Part shown: positions 11,980-25,789 of the stretch, piece after piece
How positions within the stretch are numbered: the stretch's first letter is position 1
Layout of the letters: each line of letters begins with the position of its first letter
Source: a virus
Virus record (IMG/VR): IMGVR_UViG_3300007735_000537
Span: 1 to 25,853 of that record
Length of the DNA: 25,853 nucleotides
Reading direction: 5' to 3' (one strand)
Notes under the pieces: model-generated
What the model saw: only the letters and a program-made list of their open reading frames with translations
What the model was told of the DNA's origin: nothing
Database searches by the model: none
Position numbers and translations under genes: made by a program

Positions 11980-14900
11980 GTGAACTCTCAAGAGCTATTT
12001 CTCGATGTGTCTAGTGGGAGATTTTTGGATGGTCAAAGCACCATCCCAATTAGCAAGCCAACAATATTTTCTGATGAGCAGAGGAATCTAAAAATTAATG
12101 TTCTTCAAGTAAGTAAAAATGTTGTTAGCTCCAAACAGCCAGCCAATGATAGTTCTTTTAAGGCCAGACTTGGAACTGCGGCATTAAAATTGGCAGATGG
12201 TCAAGCCGTCAGCACACAGCCAATCAACACAACTAGAGCCACCGCAACCATAGTAACATCGCCAGCGGCAAGAACAGTTGGTTCAGCCAGAATATTTACA
12301 TATACACCAGTAACCGCTAACATCATTTCTTCGATAGCAACCTTCCCAATCGTTACTGGCGTATTTAGATTAAATGTCGATTATATTGCACCAGTCACAG
12401 CAAGCATAACAGCGGGGTTTGGAATACCCACACCAACCACCATAACCCGACCTCTTCAATATGTAGATTCTGGGATTGCGGCTAGTTATGAATTATCAGA
12501 TAATTCAGTAAGAGTTAATCCAGACCTAGCACAATCATTAAACACGACAACAACAGCAACCTTTGTTTCCTCTATTTTAGCTGGCGAGGTTGTTGGAATA
12601 AGTATTGCAAATAGGGGTAGCGGATATCCAAATGGAACTTACAGCTTAAATGTTTCTCCATCTATAACAACTGGTGCAAGCTTCACCGCAACAATATCTG
12701 CTGGGGTAGTGACAACAATATCGATTGTTACTGGTGGATTTGGTTATTCAAACGGCCCATTTGATTTAGTATTTAGTGCAACTACTGGAACTATTGCGGC
12801 GGCAACTGCGTCAGCCGTAAGCGGCTCAATCAATAAAATAACTATCACCAATGGTGGAACTGGCTATTCGACTGCTCCAAGCGTAACACTTGCCGCACCA
12901 ACAGCCGGAACAGCGGTTGCAACAGTTGTTGCAAGTGGTGGTTTTATTCAGTCACTAACAATAACAAGCGGGGGCTTTGGATATACAAATGCCCCGACTG
13001 TAACGCTTTTCCAGCCCACTAAATCATTGGCTAGTCTTACTAATCAAATTGTAGACTTGGGTTGCAAGGGAGTTAATACAAACACGATTTCGCTTGAATT
13101 TAGCGACCCAGACGGAGGGCAGACACCCCCCACATCTAAAAGACCAATCGCATCAATACAATATACTGGGGATGGTACGCTATGGAGAATTATTGTTAGC
13201 GATGTTGGATACGGATATTCTGCAACTCCAACAGTATCACACGGAGATATTTTAGCATATTTGCCAGTATTAAAAACTGGTTTTACAACGAATTTAGAAG
13301 GGCTATCACAAAATAGAAATCAAGCAATAGTCGGAGGTGGGGCTTTTGGTGGTGTCGCATTAAATACTGTTGCAACCTTTTCTGAAACTGCAACAAAGAT
13401 CAATCTTGGGGGTCTTAAAATTGGGTTTAATACCAGAACATTTTTTACTCAAAATCACAAATGGCTTACTGGTGGCTATTCACTTGATAACGAGTTTCGC
13501 TATGTGTTTGCAGACTATAATGGCGGTGCGTATAGTTCTGACCCAAGAATTGCTTTGGCACAACAAACACCGGCAGTTGTAAGGGGGGCTCAATTACTAA
13601 ACTCTATTGGAGTTGTTGTAACTGGTTCTATTTATGACCCTCAACAAACTAGGGTATTTAGGCCAGCAGAATATGGAAGAAGCTCGCTCTTAACTAGCGG
13701 AGCTATCACTTCAGAGGAATACAGAAAATATTTCCCTCAAGGAACACCAGTAGATATCAAGGGTGTTACTGTAGTTGGCAGAAGAAATCTTACAAATGCT
13801 AATGCAAATGCTGTTTCTAATCTTCCAAACCCACAGCACGATAAATTTGCTGGGAAAAGTGCCTTGGTTGCGATTGTTCCAAAAGATAGAAGTATTGTCC
13901 CAACCAGATATGCGGTTATGGAGATTGTTATTCCTTCAAGAGACACATCCTATCAAGTTTCTTCTCTAGATTTGGGAAACAATGGTAGCTATCAAGATTT
14001 TGGAGGAGGCAGATATACGCCAGAGTTTAGGGTCTTGGATGCTGGTGCTGGATATCCATCAACATATACAAAATCTTATGACCTAGTTGAGCTTGGGGCA
14101 TTATCTAGTGACCCAGTTATTTTTGAATTTAGTGGCACTACTGTTTATACTATGCCAGCGACCCTTGCTGACGGCTTTATTGATACGGCCTTCTCTACCC
14201 CCGCAAGCATCGCAACCCGACCCGGCCCTTCCGCCGTACAATATCTATTGGGTAGTGGGGGCGTTGGATATACCAGAAGCACAAATATTGCATTCCAAAG
14301 CGTTCAAACCTTGGGGCTAGTTCGATCTGCCAGCTTGAGCAATACGCCAGCATCGTATTCAGATGGAACATATAGCTGTTCCGTGCAAGCCCCTGCGTCT
14401 GGAACACCAGCACAAATAAATTTAGTTGTGGATAGAAATGGAAGCAGATCACAAGTTGTAGTTGTAAATGGTGGTAGTGGATATACTTCTGCACCTATTG
14501 TTACCGCCCCAGCACCAAACTTTATTAGTGGACAAGTGAAAAGTGTTTCTGTTTTGACCCAGCCTCAAGGATATTCAATAGATCAACAATTCTCACTTTC
14601 AGTTCCAACCAGCCCTATTGATGGTGGACAAGCCTCAATATTATTTACGCAATCTAGCTCTGGCTCTGTAAATGTAGTTATTGAAAATCCCGGCTTCGGT
14701 TATCAATCTACGCAAGTTGCAACTGCACCAGACCCAGACAGAAGATTCCAATCTGGATTTTTAAGAACACTCGAATTGCAAAATAGTCCTAACGGCTACA
14801 TAGTTGGGCAATCTTATTCCTTGCAAATTGGGCAAAGCCCACAATCGGGGGGAAATGCAGTTGTAAATCTTATTAAAGAATCAGAATCTAAATATACATT

Positions 14901-15579
14901 CCAGATAGTTAATGCTGGTGCTGGTTATTCCTCTGCTCCTATTGTAACAGCACCAAGTCCAGACGCACCTAATGGATTGCTTTCGTCAGTAGCAGTAACA
15001 ACTTTGGGTGCTGGATACGCACCCGGAACATACGAGGCCACAGTAGGTACAGCCCCCTCTGGGGGGCAGACAGCAAAAGTTAATTATGTTGTTGATGAGA
15101 ATTTAAGTGGTGAATATGTTATTGTCGAGAGCGGCAAGGGATATACTTCAGCCCCATCTATTTCTGTTCCAACGCCGGCGGGTGCTGTTATTTCCTCTAT
15201 TTCCATCACTTGTGCTGGCTCTTATTATACTAGTGATAACTATAGCGTGACAATCCAAGATGCGACTGGTTCTGGTGCTAGGCTAGATGTCCCAACAATA
15301 CAGAATGGTCAGTTACAAAATATCAATGTTTTGGATAAGGGCTATGGCTTTACGGATAACCCAACAATTATTTTCCCCAAGCCTCCTATCCCACAAACTC
15401 TACAATTACAAAGAAATCAGTTAGACTTAATCTTTAACATCACAACTGCTTCGGCCAATGCCATCCTATCCACAGCCACCCAAAGAGACATCCTTATGGA
15501 AGTCTACGAGACGGACGGAACGAACGAGCAGGTTGTGGCACAAGCTACTGTAAGTCTGGCCAAGCGAGTTTTAGAATAG
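11980..15579 (+). CDS. Large repeat-containing tail fibre/adhesion-like protein
   Basis: A 1199-residue protein starting at GTG 11980, with AAGGG about 12 bases upstream and TTGACA at 11959-11964. It holds two blocks of modules marked by G-G-x-G-Y-(T/S)-x-x-P-x-V-T: one at about residues 200-420 and one at about 780-1135. The second block is five tandem units of about 68 residues, each with a G-Y-x-x-G-x-Y half and a GYTSAPxVTAPxP half. Between the blocks lies a unique region (about 430-775) with GYSLDNEFRYVFADYNGG that could be an enzymatic or receptor-binding part. The C-terminal 80 residues (QRDILMEVYETDG) look like a separate beta domain. Similar GxGY repeats are widespread in aquatic phage virion proteins. 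A receptor-binding or tail-fibre role is likely but not proven. Confidence 0.65.
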   Translation: MNSQELFLDVSSGRFLDGQSTIPISKPTIFSDEQRNLKINVLQVSKNVVSSKQPANDSSFKARLGTAALKLADGQAVSTQPINTTRATATIVTSPAARTVGSARIFTYTPVTANIISSIATFPIVTGVFRLNVDYIAPVTASITAGFGIPTPTTITRPLQYVDSGIAASYELSDNSVRVNPDLAQSLNTTTTATFVSSILAGEVVGISIANRGSGYPNGTYSLNVSPSITTGASFTATISAGVVTTISIVTGGFGYSNGPFDLVFSATTGTIAAATASAVSGSINKITITNGGTGYSTAPSVTLAAPTAGTAVATVVASGGFIQSLTITSGGFGYTNAPTVTLFQPTKSLASLTNQIVDLGCKGVNTNTISLEFSDPDGGQTPPTSKRPIASIQYTGDGTLWRIIVSDVGYGYSATPTVSHGDILAYLPVLKTGFTTNLEGLSQNRNQAIVGGGAFGGVALNTVATFSETATKINLGGLKIGFNTRTFFTQNHKWLTGGYSLDNEFRYVFADYNGGAYSSDPRIALAQQTPAVVRGAQLLNSIGVVVTGSIYDPQQTRVFRPAEYGRSSLLTSGAITSEEYRKYFPQGTPVDIKGVTVVGRRNLTNANANAVSNLPNPQHDKFAGKSALVAIVPKDRSIVPTRYAVMEIVIPSRDTSYQVSSLDLGNNGSYQDFGGGRYTPEFRVLDAGAGYPSTYTKSYDLVELGALSSDPVIFEFSGTTVYTMPATLADGFIDTAFSTPASIATRPGPSAVQYLLGSGGVGYTRSTNIAFQSVQTLGLVRSASLSNTPASYSDGTYSCSVQAPASGTPAQINLVVDRNGSRSQVVVVNGGSGYTSAPIVTAPAPNFISGQVKSVSVLTQPQGYSIDQQFSLSVPTSPIDGGQASILFTQSSSGSVNVVIENPGFGYQSTQVATAPDPDRRFQSGFLRTLELQNSPNGYIVGQSYSLQIGQSPQSGGNAVVNLIKESESKYTFQIVNAGAGYSSAPIVTAPSPDAPNGLLSSVAVTTLGAGYAPGTYEATVGTAPSGGQTAKVNYVVDENLSGEYVIVESGKGYTSAPSISVPTPAGAVISSISITCAGSYYTSDNYSVTIQDATGSGARLDVPTIQNGQLQNINVLDKGYGFTDNPTIIFPKPPIPQTLQLQRNQLDLIFNITTASANAILSTATQRDILMEVYETDGTNEQVVAQATVSLAKRVLE
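14312..15390 (+). repeat. Five tandem ~68-residue GxGY protein repeats
   Basis: Five units follow each other inside the large fibre-like gene, marked by GGSGYTSAP (near 14470), PGFGYQSTQ (near 14690), AGAGYSSAP (near 14915), SGKGYTSAP (near 15130) and DKGYGFTDN (near 15335). Most units close with a proline-rich APxPD/N-type linker. The first, third and fourth are most alike. The array could change copy number by recombination. Confidence 0.65.
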
Positions 15580-21472: not shown

Positions 21473-21680
21473 TGTTGAAGTTCCAAGGGTCAAGTGGTCG
21501 ATGCTTGAATGGAAAACCATAGAGGAGAAACCCAAGAACGATGAAAAAGTGCTTATGGATATTGGCGGTGAGGTTGTTGTCGGGCGTTTCGTTGATGGCT
21601 CGTTTGTGTCTCGAAGCTGGGGGCATTCTGAAAATGATGTTCGGCTTTGGGCATCGTGGCCGAAAGCACCCAAATGGTAG
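21462..21680 (+). CDS. DUF551-like small protein
   Basis: A 72-residue protein. WKTIEEKPKNDEKVLMDIGG followed by VVGRFVDGSFVSRSWG and a final Trp-Pro-rich end (LWASWPKAPKW) resembles the DUF551 family. That family is small and beta-rich, common in phages and of unknown function. It lies in a run of overlapping early genes. Confidence 0.6.
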   Translation: MSVDVEVPRVKWSMLEWKTIEEKPKNDEKVLMDIGGEVVVGRFVDGSFVSRSWGHSENDVRLWASWPKAPKW

Positions 21681-21826
21681 CTTTCCTTTCATCCATAGGG
21701 AGAGTTTTGTGGGACTTGTTCCTAATAGGTTTAGGGTGCTTGTCTCTCTATCTAACCATTCTGTATGTGAGCGGCCTATTGTGGGATTTGGGAAAAGATA
21801 TTCTGGAAAGGATTAAAAAGAAATGA
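21674..21826 (+). CDS. Small one- or two-span membrane protein
   Basis: A 50-residue hydrophobic protein (VLWDLFLIGLGCLSLYLTIL in the core, ending in a basic helix ERIKKK). It begins 7 bases before the DUF551-like stop and ends with an ATGA overlap to the next gene, filling an otherwise empty 142-base gap. The tight fit is the main evidence. Function is unknown; early phage membrane peptides often alter host envelope functions. Confidence 0.55.
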   Translation: MVAFLSSIGRVLWDLFLIGLGCLSLYLTILYVSGLLWDLGKDILERIKKK

Positions 21827-22032
21827 GCGTTAAAAGACTTAAACTTGTGGACGAATTCCACGGAATTGTATCGAGGCGGTTGAAGGAACTATTCAAGGAC
21901 TTCGACCACGCCAAGCGTGAGAATTATAAAGACATCATCAGTCACCTAGACTACTCGCATCGTATTACCAAAGAGCTATTGGATAGGGCAAAGAAATACC
22001 AGAAGAGGGATATGGAGGACAAAAAGAAATGA
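21823..22032 (+). CDS. Small charged hypothetical protein
   Basis: A 69-residue, highly charged helical protein (LKLVDEFHGIVSRRLKELFK and a Lys/Asp-rich end). It overlaps the small membrane gene and the replication gene by ATGA at both ends, so it is very likely co-translated. No family is recognised. Confidence 0.5.
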   Translation: MSVKRLKLVDEFHGIVSRRLKELFKDFDHAKRENYKDIISHLDYSHRITKELLDRAKKYQKRDMEDKKK

Positions 22033-22802
22033 GGCGAGATTCTTTCTGGTTTCCCTTTGAGCCGAACCGCTGGCTTTCAAACGAAAAGCTGGCTCTGGTA
22101 AGCCTTGCCTCAAGGGGGCTATGGATTCACCTTGTCTGCCTAATCTATAAGGCCAACGCCGGCGGGAAGTTAGTCATCAACGGCAACCCACCAACCCCAG
22201 AACAGATAAGCAGAATGGTCGGTCAAGACTCAAAGCCTTTACTGCAAGAGCTTGAGGTTGCTGGGGTTTATGAGATTAAAGATGGGGCAATCTATCACGG
22301 CGGCACGGCTGAAACCTTGGCAGATATGAACAAAAGATCAGCTGGTTATGCCTCAAGATCGACCAAAGATAGACCATCTATGACCCATAGATGCACCATA
22401 GATGAGCCATCTATGAACCATCTATCGTCCATAGATGAGCAAAAGATGGTACACAATAACAATAACAATAACAATAACAATAACACAAAGAAAGAGAGAG
22501 AGGGTTTACGCCCCACGCTCGCTGAATGGATTGCCTTCGCTAAAGAGATTGGATGGAGGCAGACGGACGCAGAGTCAGCTTTTGATTATTATGAGAGCAA
22601 TGGATGGAAGGTGGGAGGAAAAGCGGCGGTCAAGGATTGGCGGGCGTGTGCCAGAAATTGTCAGCGGAGAAGCAACCAACAACCAACCAAAGGAAACCAA
22701 CCAATGAAGAAACCAATCAAATCGGGGTGCGAATCCCCTCCAAGATATAAATTGTGGGGATACACCACCTATCAAGAGTGGATGAATGCGGGGTGTCCGT
22801 GA
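22029..22802 (+). CDS. Replication initiator-like protein (phage replisome organizer type)
   Basis: A 257-residue protein. The N-terminal half (WFPFEPNRWLSNEKLALVSL, about 7-90) matches the winged-helix start of DUF1376/YdaU-type and lambda O-like replication proteins. The region 100-152 is a low-complexity linker encoded by the iteron array and an AATAAC run, including ten consecutive Asn (143-152). A C-terminal domain (about 160-215: RPTLAEWIAFAKEIGW; then ESNGW, KAAVKDWRACARNC) is common in phage replication proteins and may bind the helicase loader or helicase. A short tail ends WMNAGCP. It likely binds the iterons within its own gene and loads host replication machinery. Confidence 0.7.
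   Translation: MRRDSFWFPFEPNRWLSNEKLALVSLASRGLWIHLVCLIYKANAGGKLVINGNPPTPEQISRMVGQDSKPLLQELEVAGVYEIKDGAIYHGGTAETLADMNKRSAGYASRSTKDRPSMTHRCTIDEPSMNHLSSIDEQKMVHNNNNNNNNNNTKKEREGLRPTLAEWIAFAKEIGWRQTDAESAFDYYESNGWKVGGKAAVKDWRACARNCQRRSNQQPTKGNQPMKKPIKSGCESPPRYKLWGYTTYQEWMNAGCP
22363..22450 (+). repeat. Iteron array with 11-bp period, candidate replication origin
   Basis: Six clear units begin at 22374, 22385, 22396, 22407, 22418 and 22429, each starting CCAT(CT/AG)AT, with weaker copies at 22363 and 22440. The 8-base core CATAGATG occurs in both orientations in the order minus, plus, plus, minus, minus (one mismatch), plus. Three periods equal 33 bases, giving two 11-residue protein repeats (PSMTHRCTIDE and PSMNHLSSIDE). 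An AT-rich tract follows at once. Confidence 0.7.
22455..22484 (+). repeat. AATAAC tandem repeat, AT-rich candidate unwinding element
   Basis: Five copies of AATAAC encode ten consecutive Asn of the initiator-like protein. The tract starts 5 bases after the last weak iteron and has a strong A bias on the + strand. In lambdoid origins an AT-rich element lies beside the iterons, so this may be where strands open. It is also a likely site of slippage. Confidence 0.55.
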
Positions 22803-23203
22803 TTGCCCACCATCAAGAGCTAGTCCTAGCGGCAACCATCCACCGGGTGAAGATGTGCGAGGACAAATTGCGGGAGTTTGAGCAAATGGTGACCACACTC
22901 ACTTCTACAATGGCACAAAATCGAGCAGAATTGGCCTCTAAAGGGCTTGAAAAGTTCGTTTTAGGGGTAACTACCCCACTAGACATCCCAAAAGAGCTTG
23001 TTCCGACCTATGGAAAGGCTGGGGCGAGGCGAAATCGTGAATACTCCACAGTTAAGAAGCGATGGACGCTCTGGAAGCATCAATTAGAGAGCGGAATGTC
23101 GATGAGCGAGCTTGCAAAGGCTTGGGGAGTTCATAGAACCACAATTATGTTCGCCAAGAGCCGTAACTTCATTGTTAGGAAAGCGAAAGGAGGCTCAAGA
23201 TGA
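22799..23203 (+). CDS. Helix-turn-helix protein with coiled coil
   Basis: A 134-residue protein. The GTG at 22799 forms a GTGA overlap with the preceding stop and has GGGG at a fair distance; upstream GTG codons at 22754 and 22793 are alternatives. The N-terminal half is a coiled coil (VKMCEDKLREFEQMVTTLTS). The C-terminal half has a helix-turn-helix (MSMSELAKAWGVHRTTIMFA) like those of resolvase-type or Trp-repressor-type recognition helices. It may bind DNA in replication or regulation. Confidence 0.5.
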   Translation: MIAHHQELVLAATIHRVKMCEDKLREFEQMVTTLTSTMAQNRAELASKGLEKFVLGVTTPLDIPKELVPTYGKAGARRNREYSTVKKRWTLWKHQLESGMSMSELAKAWGVHRTTIMFAKSRNFIVRKAKGGSR

Positions 23204-23469
23204 TTGCGATGGTTGAAGCGGAGCAGTTCGAGTTGCCTTTTATGCGAACAACCCACCCACAAAAGACGGAAGGCCACGACCAGAACGCCAGAATCCTAGC
23301 ACACTTGCAATCCGGGCGAACACTCACGGCTCTGGAAGCTCTGGAATGGTTCAAGTGCTTCCGACTAGCAAGCCGAGTGTGCGACTTGCGGAAGGCTGGG
23401 CATCTAGTCGAGAAGCGAACAGTCAAAACCAACAGCGGCAAAAACATCGCTCAATACTATTTGGCATAA
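23200..23469 (+). CDS. Small winged helix-turn-helix protein
   Basis: An 89-residue protein with the pattern of a small phage winged-helix family: ILAHLQSGRTLTALEALEWF, then FRLASRVCDLRKAGHLV, and a final GKNIAQYYLA strand. The helix spacing and the wing match DNA-binding domains often found near replication genes. It overlaps the preceding gene by ATGA and is coupled by TAATG to the 21-residue gene that follows. Confidence 0.65.
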   Translation: MIAMVEAEQFELPFMRTTHPQKTEGHDQNARILAHLQSGRTLTALEALEWFKCFRLASRVCDLRKAGHLVEKRTVKTNSGKNIAQYYLA

Positions 23470-23534
23470 TGTCGAATAACCCAAAACCACCCCTTGCATC
23501 AACCAAGACTCAAAGTAAGTTGCAAATTCGATGA
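23469..23534 (+). CDS. Putative 21-residue protein
   Basis: ATG 23469 overlaps the preceding TAA and the TGA at 23532-23534 overlaps the next ATG. The reading frame MSNNPKPPLASTKTQSKLQIR fills the whole gap between two real genes with overlaps at both ends, which is unlikely by chance. It could also act only as a translational bridge. No function can be assigned. Confidence 0.4.
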   Translation: MSNNPKPPLASTKTQSKLQIR

Positions 23535-25699: not shown

Positions 25700-25789
25700 A
25701 CTTACGCAAGTTTTTACACAAGGCACAAGTGCGACTTACGCAAGCAGGGTCGTTGATTATAGGGCACTTATGCATAAGTAGGCATAAGT
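25700..25789. repeat. Cluster of ACTTRYGC octamers in both orientations
   Basis: Six octamers fall within 90 bases: ACTTACGC at 25700-25707 and 25734-25741, rc GCACAAGT at 25723-25730, and the pair ACTTATGC/GCATAAGT that forms the palindrome at 25766-25779, followed by a further GCATAAGT at 25782-25789. A similar GCTTACGC lies at 25180-25187 in the coding region upstream. The layout fits a multi-site protein-binding region. Confidence 0.5.

Follow-up and report, generated by a model that had tools for sequence, protein, structure and literature searches.

The replication origin of bacteriophage lambda is composed of iterons and an AT-rich tract that occupy a central position within the initiator gene O, and the iterons are imperfect inverted repeats of approximately 19 bp that are bound by O dimers (PMC7466680, PMC5043065). 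Rep of plasmid pSK41, an initiator of the RepA_N type, uses a winged helix-turn-helix (wHTH) N-terminal domain to bind Rep boxes in the central part of its own gene; as protein, the linker that this origin specifies is dispensable, and in the chimera pPR9 the N-terminal domain and the origin were swapped against a constant C-terminal domain (PMC5703833). The replisome organizer gp38 of phage SPP1 binds direct repeats in its own gene 38 (oriL), which are accompanied by an AT-rich unwinding element, and this phage also encodes its own loader and DnaB-type helicase and has a second origin (PMC6316719). In the PLE satellites of Vibrio cholerae phages, the DNA-binding domain of RepA covaries with the origin over a constant C-terminal domain, the module having been swapped repeatedly, and the origin itself is intergenic and contains three semi-palindromic iterons of approximately 30 bp (PMC8263062). 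Tandem 11-bp repeats have been described at the bind locus of pGL2, a rolling-circle plasmid in which they lie 52 bp downstream of the nick locus, and in an Acinetobacter oriV, which additionally has 23-bp iterons (PMC3387028, PMC7031236); therefore, the pitch itself has precedent. In-gene origins, modular swaps of a binding domain with its origin and 11-bp repeats at plasmid origins are already known separately, and no description of an 11-bp iteron array within a phage initiator gene was recognized in searches of an open-licence library.

The locus described here is located in a 25,853-base virus record from IMG/VR, the whole of which is referred to as the window. What appears to be new is the combination of a fixed pitch of one helical turn with a free core and a free orientation, within an initiator gene. 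The comparisons below, together with analogy to the described systems, make it very probable that the linker DNA of this gene is the replication origin of the phage and is bound by the N-terminal domain of the encoded protein. The features of the locus are as follows.

22029–22802, plus strand: initiator (replisome-organizer-like) gene, 257 aa (ORF call; PHROG and relatives' profile matches)
22101–22325, plus strand: N-terminal winged-helix domain, residues 25–99, putatively iteron-binding (AlphaFold2 model and PDB alignments)
22363–22373, plus strand: weak 5′ unit CCAAAGATAGA, core in plus orientation with 2 mismatches
22368–22502, plus strand: disordered linker, residues 114–158, spanning the six strong units and the tract (pLDDT <50)
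22374–22439, no single strand: six strong 11-bp iterons, core CATAGATG, orientation − + + − − + (direct reading, TRF, shuffles)
22440–22450, plus strand: weak 3′ unit CAAAAGATGGT, core in plus orientation with 2 mismatches
22455–22484, plus strand: (AATAAC)x5 A-rich, strand-asymmetric tract, putative unwinding element (direct reading, TRF, instability rank)
22509–22680, plus strand: C-terminal domain, RPT..W...FDYYESNGW..G...VKDWRACARN, putatively replisome-recruiting and common across iteron types (alignment and swaps)

As in the lambda origin and its variants in Stx phages, repeats and an adjacent AT-rich, strand-asymmetric tract are positioned inside the initiator gene; the iterons of lambda, however, are inverted repeats of approximately 19 bp, whereas the present array repeats an 8-bp core at intervals of 11 bp and in changeable orientation. 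The initial annotation had proposed a lambda-like origin candidate within an initiator gene, which is supported by the layout, by the pitch in relatives and by the association with the N-terminal domain, all of which point to such an origin; its parallel with the direct repeats of lambda O holds for the layout and fails for the iteron design, since the lambda iterons are inverted rather than plain direct repeats. The excerpted reports on pGL2 and the Acinetobacter oriV describe their 11-bp repeats without placing them inside a rep gene, unlike the array in the window.

A search of IMG/VR returned 293 relatives of the gene, of which the best 80 were kept, and a second scan starting from a distant member added a further group, termed group B (L070–L072, L074–L080 and L082–L113). 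The resulting 110 complete genes were reduced at 92% identity to 35 representatives, 23 belonging to group A, which includes the window, and 12 to group B. No near DNA match to the window was found in phage records.

The ATG of the initiator gene overlaps the stop codon of the upstream ORF 21823–22032. In a PHROG profile search with the window protein, the C-terminal domain matched PHROG_15768, a family of unknown function (E 3.9e-15, residues 131–229) that is also matched by the relatives L082 and L107; DnaD-like phrog_186 gave only a weak match (E 0.006), and no O-like PHROG was matched. The protein has no Pfam match above the cut-off and no NCBIfam match, its best E value in a sequence search of solved structures was 0.02, and Foldseek found nothing in the PDB at E 0.001 or better. 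An AlphaFold2 model built on a 37-sequence alignment (mean pLDDT 72, pTM 0.40) comprises a winged-helix N-terminal domain at approximately residues 25–99, with a pLDDT of about 90 at residues 21–90, a helix extending to residue 113, a linker (residues 114–158) with a pLDDT below 50, and a small helical C-terminal domain. The best PDB alignments of the N-terminal domain are mostly with wHTH proteins (Z up to 7.5), and the top matches among viral structures include proteins named Lin1244/Lin1753-like, DUF1376 and replication initiator. The Rep–DNA complex 5kbj (Z 7.1, 84 residues, rmsd 4.4) and 4pta, titled MDR initiator (Z 6.7, 86 residues, rmsd 4.3), both align below the level that separates relatives, and because all Z values are below 8, support extends to the fold class only. 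The wHTH N-terminal domain, the low-pLDDT linker and a C-terminal domain shared with initiators agree with the initial placement of the array and the tract in the linker of an initiator-like protein. This protein resembles pSK41 Rep in its wHTH N-terminal domain, its in-gene sites, to which binding is putative here, and a cassette of N-terminal domain plus array over swapped C-terminal domains; it differs in belonging to a phage rather than a plasmid, in reaching no more than the above Z values with 5kbj and 4pta, and in having no RepA_N among its Pfam matches at E values up to 1.

No helicase or loader gene was recognized beside the window gene. Among distant relatives, a DnaB-type helicase gene adjoins the initiator gene in Pam1 (L160) and in a Vibrio phage (L161), and a DnaC-like loader gene adjoins it in the Bacteroides phage Versailles (L162). 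Replisome organizer profiles of PHROG are matched by L107, L145, L160 and L162, and O-like phrog_345 is matched by L161 (E 8.9e-11); L082, of group B, has no initiator profile match. DnaB_C (PF03796), the one helicase family searched in the IMG/VR records, is present in Pam1 and was found in none of 17 such records (the window and 16 relatives, 34.8–38.5 kb), which may be incomplete. This distribution sets the group apart from SPP1, with whose oriL the locus shares in-gene repeats and an AT-rich element, and recruitment of the host helicase is therefore probable.

The same surroundings bear on whether the array might be an operator for transcription control by the protein or by another regulator instead of an origin. 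Such a function would suit the wHTH domain in the N-terminal half of the protein and the HTH-like ORFs immediately downstream (22754–23203 and 23200–23469); however, the array lies approximately 330 nt inside the coding region and is followed by the A-rich tract rather than by a gene start, matches to replisome organizer profiles are seen in several distant relatives, and helicase or loader genes are neighbours of the initiator gene in three distant relatives. We consider an operator in place of an origin improbable, although the two roles are not mutually exclusive.

The preferred reading, an origin within the linker DNA, is based on an array of eight 11-bp units in register at 22363–22450, the six strong ones being CCATCTATGAC (22374), CCATAGATGCA (22385), CCATAGATGAG (22396 and again 22429), CCATCTATGAA (22407) and CCATCTATCGT (22418). 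These six starts and the weaker units at 22363 and 22440, as initially annotated, were confirmed by direct reading, which likewise reproduced the annotated orientation of the cores in this phage; TRF detected periods of 11, 22 and 33 at the array. The core is near-palindromic (CAT-AG-ATG), and for this reason two central base changes are enough to flip it. Window-wide, the core with at most one mismatch occurs at 25 places, and the sole cluster in that list is 22375–22430.

The periodicity exceeds what coding constraint would produce. Lag-11 self-identity in 22352–22451 is 0.65, vs. 0.49 ± 0.04 in synonymous shuffles that preserve the protein, 3 of 20,000 of which reach 0.65, and the five exact CATAGATG/CATCTATG copies were matched by none of the 20,000; a looser shuffle test with a sliding 66-nt window gave 8/400 for the window gene. 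The cores of the six strong units begin in frames 1, 0, 2, 1, 0 and 2, and the peptides encoded by the units differ, a single DNA word being spelled in three frames. The use of all three reading frames excludes a purely protein-level repeat.

The AATAAC x5 tract reported after the array was found again at 22455–22484. The 40 nt from 22452 to 22491 contain 26 A, 8 C, 5 T and 1 G, and the best 40-bp window at the tract ranks 35 of 25,814 positions for duplex instability, less stable stretches being present elsewhere in the window. In the group-A relatives listed, the corresponding position is mostly occupied by AAT/AAC/AGT/AAG tracts. In group B, the 11-bp array is followed by purine-rich 7-bp repeats of the AGAGGTT, AGAGTCC and AGAAGCC types, which replace the AATAAC/AATAGT of group A.

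L107:2375–2408, L111:2380–2407 and L102:2376–2403: group-B 7-bp purine-rich repeat tracts

These tracts may correspond in function to the putative unwinding element. The Pam1 gene contains an AGAAGCC run resembling them. Just past the C-terminal domain of the window gene lies another A/C-rich, strand-asymmetric tract (22664–22721) with 7-bp CAACCAA repeats (TRF 22673–22687 and 22681–22721), and a peptide like ..NQ....KGNQPMK, matching this tract, is present in most alignment rows of both groups.

Other origin signals were sought at the locus. Cumulative GC skew, which had been put forward as a check on the origin, has no turning point at 22.4 kb of the window and no extremes at the initiator gene in three relatives. 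No exact DnaA box is present near the gene, the sole exact match in the window being at 25712, and the region 21500–23500 contains one site with a single mismatch (22436, minus strand).

The 11-bp pitch is a family-wide property. Homologues that retain the protein but lack a repeat period in the linker DNA had been named initially as a refutation; instead, lag-11 pitch is above synonymous-shuffle expectation in 33 of the 35 representatives, down to approximately 42% protein identity, when a gene is scored as periodic if its observed lag-11 value is reached in no more than 10 of 400 synonymous shuffles. In 15 of the 35 no shuffle reaches that value, and the two failures are L031 (35/400) and L064 (94/400). 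Averaged over the 35 representatives, self-identity at lags 7–30 is highest at lag 11 (0.62), followed by lag 22 (0.61), with 0.33 at lag 10 and 0.35 at lag 13; lag 11 alone ranks first in only 13 of them, lag 22, codon-multiple lags or lags of the 7-bp tracts leading elsewhere. In the 23 group-A representatives, one 11-nt register, its phase set separately for each gene, accommodates 148 of 170 core matches (≤2 mismatches).

A search of related phages for the same array in the orthologous gene had been suggested; the pitch is kept, even with another type of N-terminal domain, and the core differs there. The group-B N-terminal domain is 36–39% identical to that of the window in five listed pairs. 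Direct repeats of GTAACGC in L107 and of GAAACGC in L111 are spaced by 11, 11 and 11 bp, the GTCACG core of L102 is spaced by 11 and 22 bp, and the core of L082 reads GTCCAG.

Orientation is also variable. The alternating inverted form had been singled out as the unusual trait, but strict alternation was rejected as a defining property: the 60 distinct group-A linkers show 15 orientation strings of between 2 and 8 units, and each of the three group-B arrays submitted to a repeat search consists of direct repeats. The group-A patterns are ++--+- (17 linkers), +---+- (9), ++--++ (6), ++-+-+ (5) and eleven others, and six-unit runs in register are present in 38 of the 60. In L032 and L047, one site has opposite orientations despite N-terminal domains that are 94% identical.

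The length of the array also varies. Between two flanking motifs, the array encodes 18 residues in 41 genes and 7 in 8, so that the two forms are 11 codons, or 33 bp, apart. These are 49 of the 70 group-A genes, counted with near-duplicates; a motif is missing from the remaining 21. The 33 bp equal three sites and are the smallest change that preserves both frame and pitch. As the sole change of array length, the 33-bp step was rejected: a difference of 7 codons at the 5′ side of the array separates the window, L001 and L031 from most of group A.

This variability also weighs on the idea that the selected feature is an RNA or single-strand DNA hairpin formed by inverted units, as in an attenuator, a cruciform or a packaging signal. 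The RNA fold of the window array is strong (−30 kcal/mol, z −5.1), and z is below −2 in 14 of the 23 group-A representatives; in group B, however, it is below −2 in only 1 of 12 (mean z 0.16) although the 11-bp pitch is kept, and in-place orientation changes alter the pairing. Hairpins arise passively from a near-palindromic core in mixed orientation, and their selection as such is very unlikely.

The origin reading gains further weight from the association of the array with the N-terminal domain across the two groups. Among the 35 representatives, iteron similarity correlates with identity of the N-terminal domain given the C-terminal domain (partial r 0.86, 0/2000 permutations) and weakly with the C-terminal domain given the N-terminal domain (partial r 0.18, 55/2000). 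The stretch compared in this test was the 110 nt beginning at codon 96, which took in some helix-coding DNA; a version with the array alone, which removes that DNA, gave 0.83 (0/2000) for the N-terminal and 0.17 (68/2000) for the C-terminal domain. With the array alone, the two domains are equal within group A (0.33 each; 25 and 12 of 2000; 23 representatives), and within group B the values are 0.50 for the N-terminal vs. 0.06 for the C-terminal domain (12 representatives). Because group A alone shows no contrast between the domains, the contrast rests on the difference between the groups and on group B.

Individual genes display the corresponding exchanges. L046/L107 and L033/L097 are among the pairs with C-terminal domains at 0.90–0.98 identity, their N-terminal domains being at only 0.35–0.43 and their iterons unrelated. 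Conversely, among the pairs with N-terminal domains at 0.98–0.99, L006/L053 and L032/L049 have C-terminal domains at 0.58, with an iteron cosine of 0.87 in the former and only 0.46 in the latter. L096–L098 combine group-B N-terminal domains with a C-terminal domain whose DNA is 82–86% identical to the corresponding part of the window, and group-B iterons are present in L096 and L097. These swaps, with iteron type tracking the N-terminal domain, indicate that the N-terminal domain and the array move as one cassette across the two types; physical adjacency adds to this co-inheritance, yet the break is located beyond the array. PLE RepA is alike in that its binding domain tracks the origin type, and unlike in its intergenic origin and its iterons of approximately 30 bp. 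From the association with N-terminal domain type, we infer that the sites of the array are the sites of the initiator.

A mechanism can be outlined on this basis. The winged-helix N-terminal domain would bind each 8-bp core, as suggested by co-inheritance across two N-domain types, and the spacing of 11 bp, one helical turn, would align neighbouring protomers along one face of the helix. By analogy with lambda, SPP1 and pSK41, the assembled complex may then stress and open the adjacent A-rich tract, and the C-terminal domain may recruit the replication machinery, probably including the host helicase; binding, melting, recruitment and origin activity are all putative steps of this scheme.

More distant relatives include 28 loci in genome contigs of many phyla (L163–L190), most of which cover the C-terminal domain only. 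The motif YYESNGW..G...KDW is present in contigs of Firmicutes, Bacteroidota, Proteobacteria, Actinomycetota and Planctomycetes, mostly without N-domain similarity, which suggests that this C-terminal domain is a widely shuffled, replisome-recruiting domain. For an analysis of distant linkers, 181 loci were reduced to 91 with the C-domain motif in a closed ORF and then to 64 that are non-redundant. Lag 11 lies beyond all 150 shuffles in 15 of these 64 linkers (13 on rerun), and lags 22 and 23 do so in 10 and 9 linkers, respectively; codon-length tracts make lag 12 equally frequent (12, and 14 on rerun), and lags 8 and 10 give 5–6. A stricter shuffle, in which codons are exchanged within the linker only, leaves 7/64 each for lag 11 and lag 22, and among the controls lag 11 stood out in 2 of 46 N-terminal parts and in 2 of 195 further ORFs from these loci. 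The linkers of the distant initiators L135, L181, L157 and L178 have a period of 23 bp, not 11, which is approximately two helical turns. These counts are suggestive of a one- or two-turn linker pitch being common among distant initiators, short of establishing a rule or universality.

Least probable of the alternatives is a repeat due to neutral tandem duplication or to an 11-residue period of the protein, for which the two repeats PSMTHRCTIDE and PSMNHLSSIDE and the disorder of the linker in the AlphaFold2 model could speak, but against which stand the use of one 11-mer in all three frames, the loss of the DNA period in most synonymous shuffles that keep the protein repeat, the persistence of the pitch through changes of the core sequence and the scarcity of lag 11 in the other ORFs of the distant loci.

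With the array read as an origin, a broader proposal can be made tentatively, and we regard it as possible rather than likely: phage initiators may commonly encode the origin as an array of 11 or 22–23 bp pitch within the part of their own gene that specifies the disordered linker; the pitch would be fixed, core and orientation free and size steps of 33 bp possible, and the initiator would assemble as single wHTH protomers lined up on one face instead of as a dimer per iteron. Initiator genes of other phages can be screened simply, by looking for a non-triplet period of 11 or 22 bp in their linker DNA. For a large group of phages that are uncultivated, the findings point, without experiment, to candidate origins and to the code by which these are recognized. 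Reader and sites are carried together by each gene, and two types of N-terminal domain and iteron are found over a common C-terminal domain; for this reason, the group would constitute a natural series for the co-evolution of winged-helix specificity and origin under coding constraint.

Several other ORFs of the window were also noted. Downstream of the initiator gene, the HTH-like ORF 22754–23203 has a GTG start within the last 49 nt of that gene and is followed by the winged-helix ORF 23200–23469 (HTH_39, E 1.2e-15). Upstream, ORF 20347–21303 matches phrog_19042, of unknown function (E 8e-63), with a weak ExoX-like C-terminal match below the cut-off, and perhaps encodes a recombination or DNA-end protein. 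ORF 11980–15579 (1199 aa) contains many GxGY(T/S)..P-like repeats and is tail- or fibre-like by appearance only.
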